A stretch of 64,000 nt of DNA from Mycobacterium florentinum (GTDB lineage Bacteria; Actinomycetota; Actinomycetes; Mycobacteriales; Mycobacteriaceae), in assembly GCF_010730355.1 (NCBI RefSeq), contig NZ_AP022576.1, positions 2,108,001 through 2,172,000 of the forward strand. The letters are read 5' to 3'. Every line of letters starts with the position of its first letter. Position 1 is the first letter of the stretch. Shown in pieces: positions 3,042 to 36,328 of the stretch. The translations under genes were made by a program, and so were the position numbers. The notes beneath the pieces are model-generated. The model was not told where the DNA came from. It searched no databases and saw only the letters and a list, made by a program, of their open reading frames with translations.

Positions 3042-3073
3042 AGTTTTGTCGTCAGCTCCGAGGAGTGTCACCC

Positions 3074-4165
3074 ATGGAATCCTTCGTTCACCTGCGCAAA
3101 GGCAAGACACCGCATCGCCTGCACGCCGACCTCGACGGCCTTAAGGACGACGAGCTGGGCCGCGGCGGATTCACCGGGCGTACCGCCAACATCTACCGCC
3201 GCCACGACCCCACCGCCTACCGGGCGTCCGGACCGCTGCGCCCCGTCGACGTGCTGTCCAGCGAGCTCAAACCCAGCGACGCCACCGACGCCCAAGGTGG
3301 ACCGCTGCTGATGTTCAGCAACGACGACTGCCGGGTACTGCTGAGCCGCCGCCACGAGCCGATGCCCTACTTCGCCCGCCACGTCGACGGCGATCTGCTG
3401 TCCTTCGTCCACCAAGGCACCGGGCTGCTGGAGACCGAGTTCGGTCCGCTGCGCTACCGGGAGGGCGACTGGGTCTACATCCCGAAGGCGTGCACCTGGC
3501 GCCAGGTGCCGGATCGCGAAACCACGCTGCTGATGATCGAGGCCACCGACGAGTTCCGGGTGCCGCCGCCCGGCCCGCTGGGCCGTCACTTCCCGTTCGA
3601 CCCGTCGCAGGCCACGATTCCCGAACCGGCTCCGATCGAGGACGACGGCCGCGACGAGTACGAGGTCCGCCTCGTTCACGAGGGCGGTCCGACAACGCTT
3701 GTTTACCAACATAATCCACTCGACGTCGAAGGCTGGCGCGGCGACAACTTCGCGTTCACCTTCAACATCGACGACTACAACGTGATCACCTCCGACAGCG
3801 TCCACCTGCCGCCGACGGTGCATCTATTCATGCAGGCGACCGGCGTGTACGTGATGAACTTCCTGCCCAAGCCCGCCGAGGGTGTCGTCGGCACCGAACG
3901 CACGCCCTGGTATCACCGCAACGTCGACTACGATGAAATCGCGTTCTTTCACGGCGGCTCGCTCTACGGCATTCCGATGCCCCCGGGCCTGATTACCCAT
4001 GCGCCGCAAGGCGTTCACCACGGCGCACCAGAGAAGGCGCGCGAACGAGCACGCCGCAAGTTCGACGAGCATTCGCGCGTCGACTGGCAGGTCATCGCCG
4101 TCGACACCCGCCGGCGACTGACACCGTCACCCGAAGTACTGGCCAACGATCTAGGACAACACTGA
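3074..4165 (+). CDS. Homogentisate 1,2-dioxygenase-like cupin protein
   Basis: This 363-residue protein resembles the bicupin homogentisate 1,2-dioxygenase family, Fe(II) enzymes that open homogentisate to maleylacetoacetate. Candidate iron ligands are visible: His281 in WYHRN, Glu288 (or Asp287) shortly after it, and His309 in LITHAPQG, in the order His, acid, His expected for the family. It is shorter than classical HGD (about 430-445). ATG at 3074 is preferred to the in-frame GTG at 3065 because the GTG lies inside the AGGAG that serves the ATG 8 nt later. It is the first gene of the operon; the stop overlaps the next ATG by 1 nt. No homogentisate-pathway partners lie nearby, so the true substrate may differ. 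Confidence 0.72.
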   Translation: MESFVHLRKGKTPHRLHADLDGLKDDELGRGGFTGRTANIYRRHDPTAYRASGPLRPVDVLSSELKPSDATDAQGGPLLMFSNDDCRVLLSRRHEPMPYFARHVDGDLLSFVHQGTGLLETEFGPLRYREGDWVYIPKACTWRQVPDRETTLLMIEATDEFRVPPPGPLGRHFPFDPSQATIPEPAPIEDDGRDEYEVRLVHEGGPTTLVYQHNPLDVEGWRGDNFAFTFNIDDYNVITSDSVHLPPTVHLFMQATGVYVMNFLPKPAEGVVGTERTPWYHRNVDYDEIAFFHGGSLYGIPMPPGLITHAPQGVHHGAPEKARERARRKFDEHSRVDWQVIAVDTRRRLTPSPEVLANDLGQH

Positions 4166-5364
4166 TGAGTCAAGCCGTGAAGCGATCCGTCAAGCACGAC
4201 TACGAACGAATCCCGTATCTGGTTGCCTTCCAGAACAATTCCGGCGTCCGCGACGTCTACGGCGGGCTGGCCGAGATCACCGTGCTGGAGAGCTATCTGC
4301 TCAAGCCGAAAGACAAGCCGTCGGACACTGTGCTGGTGTTCATGCACCCGATCGGCGGCGGCGCCTATCTGCCGATGATCAACGCGCTGGCCCGGGCCGG
4401 CCACCACGTCATCTACTGCAACAGCCGGTTCCGCGGCACGGACTCGGCGCTGCTGATGGAGAAGGTCGTCGAGGATCTGGGCGAGTGCATCACGGACGCC
4501 AAGAACCGGTTGGGCTACGCCAAGGTGGTGCTGGCCGGGTGGAGCGGCGGCGGCTCGTTGTCGGTGTTCTACCAGCAGCAGGCCCAGCACGCGACGATCA
4601 CGTCGAGCCCGACCGGCGACGGGCCGGACCTCACCAAGCTGGAGCTGCCCGCCGCCGACGGCATCATGCTGCTGGCCGCGCACATCAGCCGGCACGGCAC
4701 GCTGACCGAATGGCTCGACGCGTCCATCCTCGACGAATCCGATCCCACCAAGCGTGATCCCGAGCTGGATCTCTACAACCCCGACAACCCCAACCAGCCG
4801 CCCTACACCGAGGAATTCCTGGCCCGGTACCGTCAAGCGCAGATTGACCGCAACCGCCGCATCACCGCATGGGCCAAAGAGAAACTGGCTGAATTGACCG
4901 CTCAGGGCCGCCCCGACGACGAGTTCGGATTCGTCGTGCATGGCACGATGGCCGACCCCCGCTGGCTGGATCCGACCGTCGACCCCAATGAGCGCACGCC
5001 GGGCACCTGTTATCTGGGCGACCCGCGGGTGGTGAACATGAGCCCGGTCGGGCTGGCCCGCTTCTCGACGCTGCGCGGCTGGCTGTCGCAATGGAGCTAC
5101 GACGAAGCCCGCGGCGACGGCGTGGACTGCGGGCGCGACATCGCGATCCCCGCGCTGGTGATCGGCAACCTGGCCGACGACGCCTGCACACCCAGCCACA
5201 CCCGGAGGCTATTCGAGGCGATCGGGCATCCCGACAAGGAGATGCACGAAATCCCCGGCGCCACACACTATTACGCCGGCCCGGACCAGCGCGACAAACT
5301 GCGCCAGGCCGTCGACATCGTCACCGATTGGCTGGTCCGGCACGATTTCGCGAGCGCCGAATGA
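4165..5364 (+). CDS. Alpha/beta hydrolase
   Basis: The 399-residue protein has an oxyanion-type HPIGGG stretch at 61-66 and a nucleophile elbow GWSGG at 125-129, with Ser127 as the presumed catalytic serine. An acidic residue in the ALVIGNLADDACTPS strand near 330-345 and a His in GATHYY near 370 complete a plausible triad. It is translationally coupled on both sides (1-nt overlap upstream, 4-nt ATGA overlap downstream). Within the operon it could hydrolyse a ring-cleavage product, an ester or a CoA thioester; sequence does not decide. Confidence 0.8.
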   Translation: MSQAVKRSVKHDYERIPYLVAFQNNSGVRDVYGGLAEITVLESYLLKPKDKPSDTVLVFMHPIGGGAYLPMINALARAGHHVIYCNSRFRGTDSALLMEKVVEDLGECITDAKNRLGYAKVVLAGWSGGGSLSVFYQQQAQHATITSSPTGDGPDLTKLELPAADGIMLLAAHISRHGTLTEWLDASILDESDPTKRDPELDLYNPDNPNQPPYTEEFLARYRQAQIDRNRRITAWAKEKLAELTAQGRPDDEFGFVVHGTMADPRWLDPTVDPNERTPGTCYLGDPRVVNMSPVGLARFSTLRGWLSQWSYDEARGDGVDCGRDIAIPALVIGNLADDACTPSHTRRLFEAIGHPDKEMHEIPGATHYYAGPDQRDKLRQAVDIVTDWLVRHDFASAE

Positions 5365-6566
5365 CCCCAAGCGGACCGCTGGACGGCATCCGGGTGCTCG
5401 AGCTGGGCACCTTGATCGCGGGTCCGTTCGCCGGCCGCCTGCTCGGCGACATGGGCGCCGACGTCATCAAGGTGGAGCCGCCGGGCGCCCCGGACCCGCT
5501 GCGCTACTGGGGCCAGGCCGAACACCAGGGGCACCACGTGTTCTGGACCGTGGCCGCGCGCAACAAGAAGGCCATCACGCTCGACCTGCGCCGGCCGCGG
5601 GGCCGCGAGCTGTTCCTCGAGCTCGTCGAGAAGTCCGACATCGTGGTGGAGAACTTCCGTCCGGGCACGCTGGAGAAGTGGGACCTGGGCTACGACGTGC
5701 TCAGCGCGCGCAACGCCGGCATCATCCTGGTCCGGGTGTCCGGCTACGGGCAGACCGGGCCCGACGCCCACAAGGCCGGCTACGCCTCGGTGGCCGAGGC
5801 CGCCAGTGGATTGCGGCACCTCAACGGCTTTCCCGGCGGACCACCACCCCGGATTGCGCTCTCCCTCGGCGACAGCCTGGCCGGCATGTTCGGCGCCCAG
5901 GGCGCGCTGGCCGCGCTGTACCGCCGCAGCGTGACCGGGCGGGGACAGGTCGTCGACGTCGCGCTGACCGAATCATGCTTGGCCATCCAGGAATCCACCA
6001 TCCCCGACTACGACGTTGGCGGCGTGGTGCGCGGACCGTCGGGCACCCGGCTGGAAGGCATCGCGCCGTCCAACATCTATCGCAGTGCCGACGATTCGTG
6101 GGTGGTGATCGCCGCCAACCAGGACACCGTTTTCGCCCGGCTGTGCGCGGCGATGGGCCGCCCCGAGCTGGCCGGCGACGACCGGTTCGCCACGCACACC
6201 GCGCGCGGGCGCAACCAGGACGAGCTCGACAAGATCATCGGCGCGTGGGCTGCCGAGCGCCAGCCCGGCGACATCGTCGAAACCCTTTCTGCCGCAGGCG
6301 TGATCGCGGGTCCCATCAACACCGTCGCGGAGGTCGTCGACGACCCTCAGCTGCGGGCGCGCGGCATGCTGGTCGAGCACTACGACGAACGCATCGAACG
6401 CAATGTGTTGGGGCCCGGTGTTATTCCGGTGCTGTCGGAATCGCCGGGCAGCGTCCGCTGCGCCGGGCCCGCCTGCCCGGGACAACACAACGACGACGTC
6501 TACGCGGGGCTGCTGGGCAAGACCGCCGAGGAGCTCGAGGCATTGCGCGGTGAGGGGGTGCTGTGA
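5361..6566 (+). CDS. Class III CoA-transferase (CaiB/BaiF family)
   Basis: This 401-residue protein begins with the family block GIRVLELGTLIAGPFAGRL followed by GADVIKVEPP. The conserved Asp that forms the acyl anhydride during CoA transfer is the Asp of SLGDSLAG near residue 170. The family moves CoA between acyl-CoA donors and free carboxylates, so here it probably activates the operon's substrate acid. It overlaps the upstream hydrolase and the downstream lyase by 4 nt each, which implies one mRNA and coupled translation. Confidence 0.87.
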   Translation: MTPSGPLDGIRVLELGTLIAGPFAGRLLGDMGADVIKVEPPGAPDPLRYWGQAEHQGHHVFWTVAARNKKAITLDLRRPRGRELFLELVEKSDIVVENFRPGTLEKWDLGYDVLSARNAGIILVRVSGYGQTGPDAHKAGYASVAEAASGLRHLNGFPGGPPPRIALSLGDSLAGMFGAQGALAALYRRSVTGRGQVVDVALTESCLAIQESTIPDYDVGGVVRGPSGTRLEGIAPSNIYRSADDSWVVIAANQDTVFARLCAAMGRPELAGDDRFATHTARGRNQDELDKIIGAWAAERQPGDIVETLSAAGVIAGPINTVAEVVDDPQLRARGMLVEHYDERIERNVLGPGVIPVLSESPGSVRCAGPACPGQHNDDVYAGLLGKTAEELEALRGEGVL

Positions 6567-7468
6567 ACCTGCACGTCGATATCCGTGAGGTGGCTCTGCG
6601 CGACGGGCTGCAGATCGAAAAGCCAATCCCGTTGTCCGCCAAGCTGGAACTGCTCGCCGCGGTGGCCGCCACCGGCGTGCGCGAGGTCGAGGTCACCGCG
6701 TTCGTGTCCCCGACGAAGGTGCCGTCGATGGCCGACGCCGCCGAACTCGCCGCCGAGCTGCACAACTACCCCGACATCGAATTCTCCGCCCTGGTCGCCA
6801 GCCCCAACGGCGCCAAGCGCGCCGTTGGGGCCGGACTGCGGTCGATCGAATACGTGGTGGCCGCCGACGATACGTTCAGCAAGGCCAACGTCGGGCGCAC
6901 CAGCGCGGAAGCCACCGACCAGATCGACGAGATCCTCGCGATCGCGCACGGCAACTCTGGCTTTCCGGTCACGGTCGAGGTTGTCATCGCCACCGCGTGG
7001 GATTCGCCGTTCGAAGGCCCCACCCCACCGCAGCGGGTGCTGGAGATCGCCGCGGCCGCCCGCGACCGCGGGGCCGACCGCCTGTCGATCGCTGATACCA
7101 TCGGCACCACCACCCCGGGCCGGGTGAGTTCGCTGATCGCCCAACTGCGTCCGGTGATCGGCGACCTGCCGCTGGGCGCACACTTCCACAACACCCGCGG
7201 CGCCGGGCTGGCCAGCGCGTACGCGGCGGTCACCGCCGGCGTCACCCGGCTGGACTCCTCGGTCGGTGGGCTGGGCGGCTGCCCGTTCGCGCCGGGCGCC
7301 ACCGGCAACATCGCCACCGAGGACCTGGTCTACCTGCTGACCGACAGCGGCATCGACGTGGACGTCGACCTGCAGGCCGCGATCGCCGCCGCCGATGTCG
7401 CGAAATCGGCTGTCGGCCATGACCTGCCGAGCGCGCTGCTGCGCGCCGGCGACCGGATCCGGAACTGA
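6563..7468 (+). CDS. Hydroxymethylglutaryl-CoA lyase-like enzyme
   Basis: This 301-residue member of the HMGL-like family (TIM barrel) starts with DIREVALRDGLQIEK, the metal and substrate loop, and continues with VEVTAFVSPTKVPSMADA. The flexible catalytic loop GGLGGCPFAPGATGN is intact with Cys240. HMG-CoA lyase splits 3-hydroxy-3-methylglutaryl-CoA into acetyl-CoA and acetoacetate; homologues cleave other 3-hydroxyacyl-CoAs with a carboxyl arm. GTG start at 6563 within a 4-nt overlap. In this operon it would act as the C-C bond-breaking step. Confidence 0.85.
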   Translation: MNLHVDIREVALRDGLQIEKPIPLSAKLELLAAVAATGVREVEVTAFVSPTKVPSMADAAELAAELHNYPDIEFSALVASPNGAKRAVGAGLRSIEYVVAADDTFSKANVGRTSAEATDQIDEILAIAHGNSGFPVTVEVVIATAWDSPFEGPTPPQRVLEIAAAARDRGADRLSIADTIGTTTPGRVSSLIAQLRPVIGDLPLGAHFHNTRGAGLASAYAAVTAGVTRLDSSVGGLGGCPFAPGATGNIATEDLVYLLTDSGIDVDVDLQAAIAAADVAKSAVGHDLPSALLRAGDRIRN

Positions 7469-8097
7469 TGTCCTCACCCGTCCCCGACGCGTCGCGGGCG
7501 CTGACATCCAAAGGCCGTCAGACCAGACAGGCCATCGAACAGGCAGCGCGAAAACTGTTTGCCGAACGCGGCTTTCACGGCACCACGCTGGCCGACATCA
7601 CGTCGGCCGCCGGAAAATCACCGGCGGTCTTCTACCGTTACTTCGCCGACAAGGAAGACCTGTTGGCCGCGCTGGCGGAGTCGTTCCTGCACGATGTGGT
7701 GGCCCCGTCCGGGTTGAGCGTGCACCTGCCGGAGTCCGCGGATGACAACGCGTTCTTCACCTCGGTCGTCACCGGTTACTGGAACATCTTCAAGCAGAAC
7801 ATCGGCATCATGATCGCGGTCTCACAGCTGGCCGCCACTCAACCGCGGTTCGCGGCCGTGCAGAACGAGTTTCGAAAGTTCGGCATGGACATCGTCGCCG
7901 CCTCGGTGCGGCGCGCCCAGGAGCAGGGCTACGGCAACGAGCTCAACCCGCAACACACCGCGGCGGCCATCGCGCTGCTGTTCGAGAACTTCACCACCGT
8001 CTTCGTCGGGCAGTCCGGTCTCGGAATCCAGATCAGCGACGAGGACGCCATCACCACCCTATCGACGGTTTGGAAGAAGACTCTCTACGGCGTGTAA
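7468..8097 (+). CDS. TetR-family regulator of the catabolic operon
   Basis: The 209-residue protein has an N-terminal helix-turn-helix domain (about residues 14-60) with the signature ARKLFAERGFHGTTLADI and the recognition region KSPAVFYRYFADKEDLL. The C-terminal ligand-binding part does not reveal the ligand. Its ATG overlaps the stop of the lyase by one base, so it is co-transcribed with its presumed targets. The inverted repeat at 3024-3041 is the likeliest operator; an acyl-CoA pathway intermediate is a reasonable inducer guess. Confidence 0.87.
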   Translation: MSSPVPDASRALTSKGRQTRQAIEQAARKLFAERGFHGTTLADITSAAGKSPAVFYRYFADKEDLLAALAESFLHDVVAPSGLSVHLPESADDNAFFTSVVTGYWNIFKQNIGIMIAVSQLAATQPRFAAVQNEFRKFGMDIVAASVRRAQEQGYGNELNPQHTAAAIALLFENFTTVFVGQSGLGIQISDEDAITTLSTVWKKTLYGV

Positions 8098-8107
8098 GGA
8101 GATCATC

Positions 8108-9346
8108 GTGGATTTCACCCTCCCAGAACATCTTCCGGGTGTGCTGGCCGAGATGGATGCGTTCATCGAGGCGGAGATCAAGCCGCTGGAACGCGAGAAC
8201 ATCCAGTATTTCGACCAGCGCCGGGAGCATGCCCGCACCGATTGGGACAACGACGGCATCCCGACGCAAGAGTGGGAGGAGCTGCTCGCCGAGATGCGCC
8301 GGCGTGCCGACAAGGCGGGCTGGCTGCGGTACGGACTGCCGGCCTCGCTGGGCGGCCGCGACGGTACCAACGTCGACATGGCCGTGATCCGGGAACACCT
8401 GGCGCACAAGGGGCTTGGACTGCACAACGACCTTCAGAACGAGTCGTCGATCGTCGGGAACTTTCCGCAGGTGATCATGATGGAGCGCTTCGGCACCGAC
8501 GAGCAGCGCCGGGTGTGGTCCGAGGCGTTGATCACCGGCGAACGGTCCATGGCGTTCGGACTGACCGAGCCGCAGCACGGATCCGATGCGACCTGGCTGG
8601 AGACCCACGCCCAACTCGATGGCGACAGCTGGGTGATCAACGGCTCCAAGCGATTCAACACCGGCGTGCACCGCGCCACCCATGACTTGGTCTTCGCCCG
8701 GACTTCCGGCGAGCCGGGACAAGCCCGGGGTATCACCGCGTTCCTGGTCCCGACCGACACGCCCGGATTCACGGTCCCCTACTACTGGTGGACGTTCAAC
8801 ATGCCCACCGACCACGGCGAAGTCGAATTGACCGATGTGCGCATCCCCGCCGACGCGGTGCTCGGGGAGGTCGACCGCGGCCTGGAGGTCGCGCAGACGT
8901 TCCTGCACGAGAACCGGATTCGCCAGGCCGCGAGCAGCCTGGGCGCGGCGCAATACTGCATCGACCGGGCCGCCGAATATGCCGCCAAGCGCACCGTGTT
9001 CGGCAAGCCGTTGTCGGTCAACCAGGCCGTGCAATGGCCGCTGGCCGAGCTGCAGACCGAAGCGCAGATGGTGCGGTTGCTGGTGCAATTCGCCGCCTGG
9101 CACCTGGACCGCGACCACCACATGGAGGTGTCCGACAAGGTATCGATGGCGAACTATCGCGCCAACCGGCTGGTCTGCGACGCCGCCGACCGTGCCATGC
9201 AGGTCTACGGTGGCCTCGGCTACAGCCGTCACGAGCAGTTCGAGCACATCTACCGCCACCACCGCCGCTACCGGATCACCGAGGGGGCCGAGGAAATTCA
9301 GATTCGCCGAGTGGCGCAGCGGCTGTTCAAGTTTGGCAAGCAGTGA
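8108..9346 (+). CDS. Acyl-CoA dehydrogenase family protein (LvaC / ACAD10-11-like)
   Basis: This 412-residue flavoprotein shows the acyl-CoA dehydrogenase layout: helical N-terminus, FAD-contacting MAFGLTEPQHGSDATW near 155-170 with WVINGSKRFNTG after it, and a C-terminal helical domain with DRAMQVYGGLGYSRHEQFEHI near 360-380. GTG start at 8108 with AAGGAG upstream. It is followed by an APH kinase and a DUF6285 protein. In bacterial levulinate catabolism (LvaC with LvaA/LvaB) and in human ACAD10/11, a dehydrogenase paired with an APH-type kinase processes phosphorylated 4-hydroxyacyl-CoA. By that analogy this gene may act on a 4-phosphoacyl-CoA; ordinary desaturation remains possible. Confidence 0.85.
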   Translation: MDFTLPEHLPGVLAEMDAFIEAEIKPLERENIQYFDQRREHARTDWDNDGIPTQEWEELLAEMRRRADKAGWLRYGLPASLGGRDGTNVDMAVIREHLAHKGLGLHNDLQNESSIVGNFPQVIMMERFGTDEQRRVWSEALITGERSMAFGLTEPQHGSDATWLETHAQLDGDSWVINGSKRFNTGVHRATHDLVFARTSGEPGQARGITAFLVPTDTPGFTVPYYWWTFNMPTDHGEVELTDVRIPADAVLGEVDRGLEVAQTFLHENRIRQAASSLGAAQYCIDRAAEYAAKRTVFGKPLSVNQAVQWPLAELQTEAQMVRLLVQFAAWHLDRDHHMEVSDKVSMANYRANRLVCDAADRAMQVYGGLGYSRHEQFEHIYRHHRRYRITEGAEEIQIRRVAQRLFKFGKQ

Positions 9347-10326
9347 CCGAGGAGCTGGACACCAACCTGGCCTCGGTGTTGGCGCCGGTACTCGGCGCCA
9401 ACACCACGATCGAAAACCTGCGCGCGCTGACCGGTGGTGCCAGCCGCAGCACGTGGGCGTTCGACGCGGTCACCGACGGCCAACGCCGCGCGCTGATCCT
9501 GCGCACCGGGCCACCCGATGAGGTGCACGCGGGTATGGAACTCGAAGCCCGCGCTCAGGCCGCTGCCGCCGCTGCCGGCGCGCCGGTCCCTCACATCCTG
9601 GTGGCCGACGATTCGCCTGCCGCACTGGGCAATCCGTTTCTCGTCTGCGACGAGATCAAGGGCGAGACCATCGTCCGGCGCATCCAACGCCAGCTCGACG
9701 GCGCCGACGGTTACACCCGCCGAACCGAGCTGCTCCGGCAATGCGCGCAGGCGCTGGCCGCCATTCACCGGGCCGACCCGCAGATCCCCGGCCTGGCCTA
9801 CGAGGACCAGCTCGTCGAATACCGCGAGCGGCTCGACGCGATGAACGACACCACCGCCACCTTCGAGTGGGCGTTTCGCTGGCTGAGCGCCCACCGCCCG
9901 CAACCGTCGGCGAGGGTTCTGGTGCACGGGGACTACCGGATGGGAAACCTCATCGTCGACGGATCCGACCTGGCCGCGGTGCTCGACTGGGAGCTGGTAC
10001 ACCTCGGCGAGGCGTACGAAGACCTGGCTTGGTTCTGCATCCGCGCCTGGCGGTTCGGCGCACCGGCCAGCCTCGGCGCCGGCGGCCTCGGCAGTATCGA
10101 AAGCTTCGTGCGCGACTACGAGCAGGCCAGCGGCACCACCGTCGACCGGTCGGCGCTGCACTGGTGGCTGGTGCTGGCCACGCTGCGCTGGGGTGTCATC
10201 TGCCGCTTCCAGGCGGAGCGGCATTTGAGCGGTCAATCCCGCTCGGTCGAGCTGGCGACGATCGGTCGCCGGGTGAGCGAGACGGAGTGGGACATCCTGA
10301 ACCTGCTCGAGGAGGTTCGGTCGTGA
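9343..10326 (+). CDS. APH-family phosphotransferase, probable hydroxyacyl-CoA kinase (LvaA-like)
   Basis: This 327-residue protein of the aminoglycoside-phosphotransferase fold has the catalytic Brenner motif HGDYRMGN starting at His195 (catalytic Asp197) and the metal-binding DWE at 215-217. The GGASRSTWAF stretch at 31-40 forms the nucleotide loop. GTG start at 9343 overlaps the acyl-CoA dehydrogenase stop by 4 nt. Relatives beside acyl-CoA dehydrogenases phosphorylate 4-hydroxyacyl-CoA rather than antibiotics (LvaA, the ACAD10/11 kinase domains). The neighbourhood supports this metabolic role over drug resistance. The precise hydroxyacyl substrate is not visible. Confidence 0.83.
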   Translation: MTEELDTNLASVLAPVLGANTTIENLRALTGGASRSTWAFDAVTDGQRRALILRTGPPDEVHAGMELEARAQAAAAAAGAPVPHILVADDSPAALGNPFLVCDEIKGETIVRRIQRQLDGADGYTRRTELLRQCAQALAAIHRADPQIPGLAYEDQLVEYRERLDAMNDTTATFEWAFRWLSAHRPQPSARVLVHGDYRMGNLIVDGSDLAAVLDWELVHLGEAYEDLAWFCIRAWRFGAPASLGAGGLGSIESFVRDYEQASGTTVDRSALHWWLVLATLRWGVICRFQAERHLSGQSRSVELATIGRRVSETEWDILNLLEEVRS

Positions 10327-10661
10327 TCGGCGCTTACGGCCGTCCGCTGGCGGCCGAACTCGTCGCTGCGGTGGCCGAATTCCTGGAAACCGACGTCCGG
10401 GCGGCGACCAGCGGACAGGTCAACTTCCACTCCCGGGTGGCCGCCAACGCATTGCGCATCGTCGAGCGCGAACTGCTCGACGAGAGCGAGGCCGAATCGC
10501 GAGCCGCGCTGGCCGGCTTGGGTTTCGCCGACGAGGAGCAGCTTGCCGCCGCCATCCGGGCCGGCGAGCTCGACGAGCGTGCCGGCGAAGTCCTGGCCGG
10601 CCTGAGAACCCTGGTGCGCAATCGGTTAGCGGTCGCCCATCCCGGATACGACAGCGAATAG
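10323..10661 (+). CDS. DUF6285 protein, probable partner of the kinase (LvaB-like)
   Basis: A 112-residue soluble helical protein, GTG start at 10323, overlapping the kinase stop by 4 nt. It carries the DUF6285-type pattern: an N-terminal AELVAAVAEFLETDV helix, then FHSRVAANALRIVERELL, and a C-terminal LRTLVRNRLAVAHPGY. In Pseudomonas putida the small LvaB of this family is needed for activity of the LvaA kinase. The 4-nt coupling suggests equimolar synthesis and complex formation here as well. No catalytic residues of its own are evident. Confidence 0.75.
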   Translation: MIGAYGRPLAAELVAAVAEFLETDVRAATSGQVNFHSRVAANALRIVERELLDESEAESRAALAGLGFADEEQLAAAIRAGELDERAGEVLAGLRTLVRNRLAVAHPGYDSE

Positions 10662-10669
10662 GAGCCGCC

Positions 10670-11071
10670 ATGCCCGCTGCTACTGCCGAGGTCGTCGTCG
10701 ACACGGCCGACCGGCTCTTCGCGTTGATCGTCGCCGGCGACAAGACCGCGGTCGCTCGAATGTTCAGCGACGACATCGCGGTGTGGCGAGTGGGCTCGCG
10801 CCGGGACGACGACAAGGCCCGCGCGCTGAAAGTCATCGACTGGTTCATCGATGTGACCACCGAGCGTCGCTACGAGATCCTCGACCGCCGCCTCTTCGAC
10901 GACGGATCGATCAGCGGCTTTGTCCAGCAGCACGTCCTGCACGCCACCGGCCATGCCGGCCAATCGATCTCCTTGCGCGTTTGCATCGTGATCAGGGTGG
11001 GCACAAATGGTCTGATCGACCGGATCGACGAATACTTCGACCCCGCCGGAATAGCGCAGCTGATGAGGTGA
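10670..11071 (+). CDS. SnoaL/NTF2-like protein
   Basis: A 133-residue protein of the alpha+beta cone (NTF2-like) type: an N-terminal helix with VDTADRLFALIVAGDK, a DDIAVWRVGS strand and a C-terminal LIDRIDEYFDPAG strand typical of SnoaL-like polyketide cyclases and Delta5-ketosteroid-isomerase relatives. GGAG lies 6 nt before the ATG. It follows the DUF6285 gene by 8 nt and is probably in the same operon. Members bind small hydrophobic ligands and sometimes isomerise them; the role here is unknown. Confidence 0.7.
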   Translation: MPAATAEVVVDTADRLFALIVAGDKTAVARMFSDDIAVWRVGSRRDDDKARALKVIDWFIDVTTERRYEILDRRLFDDGSISGFVQQHVLHATGHAGQSISLRVCIVIRVGTNGLIDRIDEYFDPAGIAQLMR

Positions 11072-11079
11072 GACGGACG

Positions 11080-11616
11080 ATGACGACGCTGGAAACACTG
11101 CTGAACGATCCCGCCCTGGCCGGGGTGTGGAACATCGTTGCGGACCGGTCGGCCGTGACCTTCAAGATCAGGAACATGTGGGGCCTGGTGAACGTCAAAG
11201 GCCGCTTCACCGAGTTCGCCGGCGACGGACAACTCACCGGCACGGGCGCGGTCTTCGGTCGCCTCGACATCCGCACCGCGTCGGTGAACACCGGCATCGG
11301 CCGTCGCGACGAGCACCTGCGCTCGGCCGATTTCTTCGATGTCGAACGCTTTCCCGAGATCAGCGTCGTCGTCACCGCGGTGCACCCGACCGAGGGCAAG
11401 GCCGCGGATCTGCGCGCCAGCTTCACCATCAAGGGCGTCACCGCGCCGGTACCGCTGCCCGTCACGGTCACCGAGGCGGGTGACGGTTCGATCCAAATCT
11501 CGGGCGAAACCAAGATCGATCGATCCCAGTTTGACATCGGCTGGAACAAGTTCGGCATGATCGCGCCGACGGCCGAGGCGGCGGCGCAGGCCGTTTTCGT
11601 GCGGTCCGGCCAATAA
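11080..11616 (+). CDS. YceI-family lipid-binding protein
   Basis: This 178-residue protein matches the YceI lipocalin-like barrel: WNIVADRSAVTFKIRNMWGL at the start, VKGRFTEFAGDG, then RRDEHLRSADFFDVERFPEI and the closing QFDIGWNKFGMIAP. YceI proteins bind long-chain isoprenoids or amides. No signal peptide is visible, as is common for actinobacterial members, so a cytoplasmic location is likely. It lies 8 nt after the SnoaL-like gene and ends the operon. A ligand-carrier role for the operon's substrate is conceivable. Confidence 0.85.
   Translation: MTTLETLLNDPALAGVWNIVADRSAVTFKIRNMWGLVNVKGRFTEFAGDGQLTGTGAVFGRLDIRTASVNTGIGRRDEHLRSADFFDVERFPEISVVVTAVHPTEGKAADLRASFTIKGVTAPVPLPVTVTEAGDGSIQISGETKIDRSQFDIGWNKFGMIAPTAEAAAQAVFVRSGQ

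Positions 11617-33683: not shown

Positions 33684-36327
<2,644 letters not shown>

Positions 36328-36328
<1 letters not shown>

Follow-up and report, generated by a model that had tools for sequence, protein, structure and literature searches.

An LvaAB-like kinase pair joined to an acyl-CoA dehydrogenase from a clade distinct from LvaC in Mycobacterium florentinum

The closest described systems are the lva operon of Pseudomonas and mammalian ACAD10 and ACAD11 (PDB 8V3U, 8V3V), in which an APH-type kinase goes with an acyl-CoA dehydrogenase (ACAD). In the account of Rand et al. 2017 given in PMC6692424, LvaB binds LvaA in a pull-down, LvaA and LvaB together turn 4-hydroxyvaleryl-CoA into 4-phosphovaleryl-CoA, and lvaA, lvaB and lvaC mutants do not grow on levulinate. 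The passages of PMC12440821 dealing with the ACAD active site describe Arg626, His634 and Arg637, beside the catalytic Asp753 (ACAD11 numbering), as common to ACAD10/11 and LvaC and absent from conventional ACADs. According to the same passages, replacing this Arg/His/Arg set by Ala or Leu in ACAD10/11 was most disruptive, ablating ACAD activity and leading to accumulation of the phospho-intermediate.

The stretch of M. florentinum DNA analysed here (64,000 nucleotides, NZ_AP022576.1; hereafter the window) carries three head-to-tail genes on the plus strand. They encode a 412-residue ACAD with a GTG start (8108..9346; Pfam Acyl-CoA_dh_1, E 1.4e-45), which motif and tree place in a class that we call Glu-type; a 327-residue APH-type kinase of the LvaA kind (9343..10326; Pfam APH, E 1.7e-32); and a 112-residue DUF6285 protein of the LvaB kind (10323..10661; PF19802, E 1.1e-24). 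All three Pfam matches lie above cut-off and both junctions are 4-nt GTGA overlaps, which bears out the initial annotation as to coordinates, overlaps and protein families. Its report of intact HGDYRMGN and DWE motifs in the kinase was also correct, with D197, N202 and D215 as the loop residues. The loop is kept across 151 distinct kinases scoring above 200 bits with a kinase profile made here: H, D, R, the second G and N of HGDxRxGN are each present in 151/151 and the first G in 140/151, while D, W and E of DWE are each found in 151/151. The DUF6285 protein is predicted to be all-helical (mean pLDDT 92), a fold that gave no hint of function. At E 0.001 its genome yields no other PF19802 match, which makes the gene single-copy. 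Outside the trio, the window holds a second APH-type kinase gene (35480-36049, in the plus-strand frame 34565-36328; E 4.4e-24), whose loop ([16 protein letters not shown]) is like that of PDB 3ATS, which we take to be Rv3168.

The trio lies within a contiguous run of ten plus-strand genes (3065-11616), no gap between them exceeding 10 bases. Ahead of it are genes for a homogentisate-dioxygenase-like cupin (3065..4165; PF20510, E 2.6e-8), an alpha/beta hydrolase (4165..5364; Pfam), a class III (CaiB-type) CoA-transferase (5361..6566; PF02515, E 2.6e-123), an HMG-CoA lyase family protein (6563..7468; NF004283, 260 bits, over the cut-off of 246) and a TetR regulator (7468..8097; Pfam). Behind it, SnoaL-like (10670..11071) and YceI-like (11080..11616) proteins, both assigned by Pfam, complete the run. 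The cupin is short and reaches 51 bits against an hmgA cut-off of 511. The best NCBIfam model for the CoA-transferase, succinate--glutarate CoA-transferase, scores 256 bits, far under its cut-off of 750. Two reductases, one of the YhdH/acrylyl-CoA reductase family and one, under cut-off, of the PIG3 family, are encoded upstream of the run; an Rv3143-family response regulator and then nuo genes, among which nuoA to nuoC were identified by inspection, follow it. By Pfam, none of the ten genes encodes an SDR (LvaD) or an acyl-CoA ligase/synthetase (LvaE). The run thus differs from the lva operon in having CoA-transferase, HMG-CoA lyase and cupin genes instead of LvaD and LvaE.

Among 20 loci fetched from the genus, chosen from the top and the bottom of the score list rather than at random, the ACAD-kinase-DUF6285 run is unbroken in 16, and its arrangement in the genus is more than chance. 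In 15 of these 16 the cupin-to-TetR genes precede the trio; at the remaining locus (L154) the two reductases take their place. The four exceptions comprise a kinase split over two frames (L155), an ACAD likewise split (L157), an eroded locus (L169) and one lacking the ACAD (L166). In the operon copies at L169 (G089), L157 (G076) and L155 (G097), at least one gene is scattered across several frames, a pattern that decay or sequencing error would give. L166 (G122:C11) is a second kinase-DUF6285 pair with no adjoining ACAD, in a genome that has the full trio at L167.

As reference for the lva operon we used a Pseudomonas plasmid (L175, NZ_MF344569.1), found by protein search of plasmid records, in which one gene is annotated lvaB. 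When LvaA from this plasmid was searched against the genome of the window, the window kinase ranked first with 173 bits, the next match reaching 108, and the two proteins are 35-36% identical. LvaB belongs to PF19802 (E 4.8e-24) and, like the DUF6285 protein of the window, scores over the cut-off. Pairwise BLASTP between these two small proteins gives 30% identity over 92 residues at E 0.13, a value that alone is not significant; it is the Pfam family that joins them. At the sequence level the kinase and DUF6285 protein therefore match LvaA and LvaB, and as in the lva operon they adjoin an ACAD. A further tie between the two families comes from many sphingomonads, where kinase and DUF6285 form one protein. 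The C-terminal DUF6285 passed the Pfam cut-off in two of three such kinases tested (L206, 5516-6976; L217, 5617-6996), the third reaching 24.1 of the required 28.1 bits, and fusions were also recognized by eye at L225 and L246. Compared with ACAD10/11, the kinase keeps the catalytic Asp and the loop Asn; the window differs in encoding kinase and ACAD as separate proteins, together with a DUF6285/LvaB subunit that is no part of ACAD10/11. A weak alignment puts an Asp of the window kinase at the position of ACAD11 Arg176, a residue modelled close to CoA, and gives no position for Arg86.

The ACAD tells a different story from its two partners. All four signature residues shared by LvaC and ACAD10/11 (R, H, R, D) are replaced. 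F265 (8900..8902) occupies the position of ACAD11 Arg626, where the LvaC alignment is free of gaps, Q273-A-A-S276 (8924..8935) that of His634-Cys-Met-Arg637, and E392 (9281..9283) that of the catalytic Asp753. These residues typify a class, here called Glu-type and defined by F-(x4)-R-x-R-Q-A-A-S and a Glu base in a genome that also encodes an APH kinase and DUF6285, and the window ACAD fits this definition. F, Q and E each occur in all 118 distinct Glu-type sequences, and S in 113 of them; the full R/H/R/D set occurs in 19 sequences, five of them from the genome of the window itself. Searching that genome with LvaC placed the window ACAD 14th (134 bits, 33%), 13 other genes scoring better and the top match being another gene (219 bits, 39%). 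ACAD11 was likewise only the 30th PDB match of the window ACAD, at 126 bits, the top match reaching 165.

A tree of 50 ACADs (12 Glu-type, 15 LvaC-type and 23 others of the genome of the window) resolved the Glu-type sequences as one clade (SH-aLRT 100, stem 1.18) and the LvaC-type sequences as another (SH-aLRT 99). The two are perhaps distant sisters (SH-aLRT 83, weak). An earlier FastTree run had joined both classes and two other ACADs at full support; we trust this grouping less because its alignment profile came from only the two classes. The initial annotation had likened the trio to LvaC-LvaA-LvaB, naming best matches to unrelated clades as evidence against that likeness. The resemblance holds for the kinase and the DUF6285 protein, and such a match was found for one protein of the three, the ACAD, whose identification as LvaC we reject on its residues, its rank and its separate clade. 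With ordinary short/medium-chain acyl-CoA dehydrogenases the Glu-type enzymes share domains and the Glu base; they differ in forming a distinct clade, in their steady kinase company and in a set of polar or charged residues that are near-invariant (115-118 of 118) and rare in other ACADs. This set includes R95, D108, Q110, E112, H157, N269, R272 and Q273, of which D108, Q110 and E112 may lie in the acyl pocket, as judged from MCAD numbering.

Glu-type ACADs were found in actinobacteria, proteobacteria and haloarchaea. The libraries compared held no specific name for the clade, and we found no described function for it and no reported activity of any member. On three haloarchaeal plasmids (L316, L317, L318) a Glu-type ACAD and a kinase are accompanied by a protein of 157-159 residues at the place of DUF6285, which Pfam did not recognize as DUF6285.

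The distribution of the ACAD follows that of its partners. In a sample of 296 genomes of the phylum, a Glu-type ACAD (threshold E 1e-110) occurred in 13 and DUF6285 in 26 (25 over cut-off), and all 13 Glu-type genomes had DUF6285. Fisher's test gives 6e-16, or 2e-10 with the genus left out, treating genomes as independent and ignoring kinship. The converse did not apply, 13 of the 26 DUF6285 genomes having no Glu-type ACAD; in six of the 13 Glu-type genomes the stretch fetched around the ACAD contained no kinase or DUF6285 match. Within the genus (148 genomes), 134 had both ACAD and DUF6285 and seven had neither. In four more, a more distant ACAD (63-64%) adjoined a kinase and a DUF6285 protein that stayed below the Pfam cut-off (the three run through Pfam reached 23.1-25.3 bits), and three had DUF6285 with no ACAD match at E 1e-150. 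The seven genomes with neither are G002, G055, G063, G075, G083, G115 and G145, two of them being 3.3 Mb in size. In M. tuberculosis fadB4 adjoins Rv3142c and Rv3143, an arrangement that would point to loss there too.

A contig scan by tblastn (E 1e-3 or better) returned at least 509 stretches encoding a relative, of which the best 80, all proteobacterial, were kept and 79 scored with profiles made here. Within 4 kb of the ACAD, 25 of these 79 had a kinase and a separate DUF6285 protein, 22 a kinase-DUF6285 fusion, three a kinase with no DUF6285 over threshold, and one DUF6285 at the contig end. The other 28, some with short flanks, had neither partner within 4 kb; 27 of their genomes were searchable, and 26 of these 27 encoded DUF6285 elsewhere. 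This search spanned 30 genomes, 29 of them positive, including three outside the 27 in which the partners were linked on the other strand. The one genome that carries the ACAD yet gave no DUF6285 match in this search is that of Panacagrimonas perspica (L187). In Caulobacter vibrioides the ACAD lies at L197, and kinase and DUF6285 lie at L280. Each of the 30 DUF6285 loci recovered lies beside or within a kinase. The kinase and DUF6285 are also paired with LvaC-type ACADs, in the lva operon, on Thermus thermophilus pTT27 and at L140. These one-way distributions indicate that the kinase can pair with either ACAD class, and that the Glu-type ACAD rarely occurs without the kinase. It is mainly because of this asymmetry that we place the Glu-type ACAD and the kinase in successive steps.

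We infer activity, substrate and order of steps as follows. The LvaAB-type kinase, a catalytic APH protein with a DUF6285 subunit, would phosphorylate the hydroxyl of a hydroxyacyl-CoA. The Glu-type ACAD has a glutamate base and lacks the Arg/HxMR phosphate clamp. It would catalyse the step adjoining that of the kinase and would most likely convert the phosphorylated acyl-CoA to the enoyl-CoA, either by means of different polar pocket residues or with the phosphate placed on a different carbon. In Mycobacterium the CoA-transferase would load the acid and the HMG-CoA lyase would cleave a product; judging by the neighbouring genes, our guess is that the substrate ends as a 3-hydroxy-3-methylacyl-CoA. 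Near Glu-type loci elsewhere there are genes for enoyl-CoA hydratase, acyl-CoA ligase and TRAP transporters (L173, L216) and for thiolase (L173), which agree with acyl-CoA breakdown. L173 is a Sulfitobacter pontiacus locus at which ACAD, kinase and DUF6285 genes adjoin one another. We place about even confidence in the reading that the trio represents a kinase-plus-ACAD module of a second kind, in which an LvaAB-type kinase goes with a Glu-type ACAD acting at a neighbouring step. Points against it are the Asp at the Arg176 position of the kinase, the missing DUF6285 match in P. perspica and the haloarchaeal small proteins that Pfam does not call DUF6285.

Replacement of Arg/His/Arg ablates ACAD10/11 activity, in the account of PMC12440821 cited above, and the Glu-type ACAD may therefore not act on a phospho-acyl-CoA at all. 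The kinase product could instead be passed in trans to an LvaC-type ACAD encoded elsewhere, with the Glu-type enzyme serving the same pathway as an ordinary alpha,beta-dehydrogenase of an acyl-CoA. A Glu base at the canonical ACAD place and the absence of the clamp are what such a dehydrogenase would display, and the genome of the window does contain five LvaC-type ACADs elsewhere, identified both by their R/H/R/D residues and by an LvaC-type profile. In a half-trained trial this profile gave 432-539 bits for held-out LvaC-type sequences, at most 305 for Glu-type and at most 256 for other ACADs. In the stretches of 14-20 kb fetched, three of the five have an APH gene in their vicinity and the one at L097 has none; DUF6285 had no match in the four stretches fetched around these ACADs. 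The APH gene list of the genome places none near the LvaC-type ACADs at 3354214 and 3384920, which may therefore need a kinase from elsewhere. Furthermore, an HxMR ACAD occurs in the same stretch at two (L234, L258) of the best 80 Glu-type loci among at least 509 relatives listed, and all 64 Glu-type genomes searched encode an LvaC-type ACAD (weakest best E 7.7e-145), so that the trans explanation stands. However, these 64 (48 genomes of the best-80 loci and 16 others) are all Glu-type holders, and LvaC-type ACADs may simply be common, in which case their presence says little. Successive steps moreover account better for the co-occurrence of the Glu-type ACAD with the kinase. Delivery in trans is thus possible, though we lean against it.

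It is improbable that the trio is a true LvaABC system for 4-hydroxy acid degradation, with the window ACAD itself performing the LvaC reaction. The same three protein families do share one operon, the ACAD is 31% identical to LvaC from end to end, and the clades have their weak sister relation; against this stand the four replaced residues, the 14th rank in the LvaC search, the separate clade and the absence of an SDR or acyl-CoA ligase from the ten genes scanned. Aminoglycoside resistance, a label that the initial annotation rightly called misleading, is hardly credible, since the kinase, although of the APH family, matches the APH(3') NCBIfam model with only 40.3 bits against a curated cut-off of 205, overlaps catabolic genes and is the top match of LvaA.

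Returning to the module of successive steps, what appeared to be one system would become two ACAD classes sharing one kinase type, told apart by a residue test. More tentatively, the module may constitute a second widespread prokaryotic route for removing hydroxyl groups from acyl-CoAs. In such a route the LvaAB-type kinase would phosphorylate the hydroxyl. The Glu-type ACAD would expel the phosphate with no Arg/HxMR clamp, and might do so at a different carbon or with net oxidation. The mycobacterial version of the route would lead into an HMG-CoA-lyase pathway acting on branched hydroxy acids. The residue test marks an enzyme clade, with 118 distinct members here, that extends from mycobacteria to haloarchaea, and it prevents the names LvaC and aminoglycoside phosphotransferase from being wrongly transferred to a trio common in the genus (ACAD in 138/148 sampled genomes, DUF6285 in 137/148).
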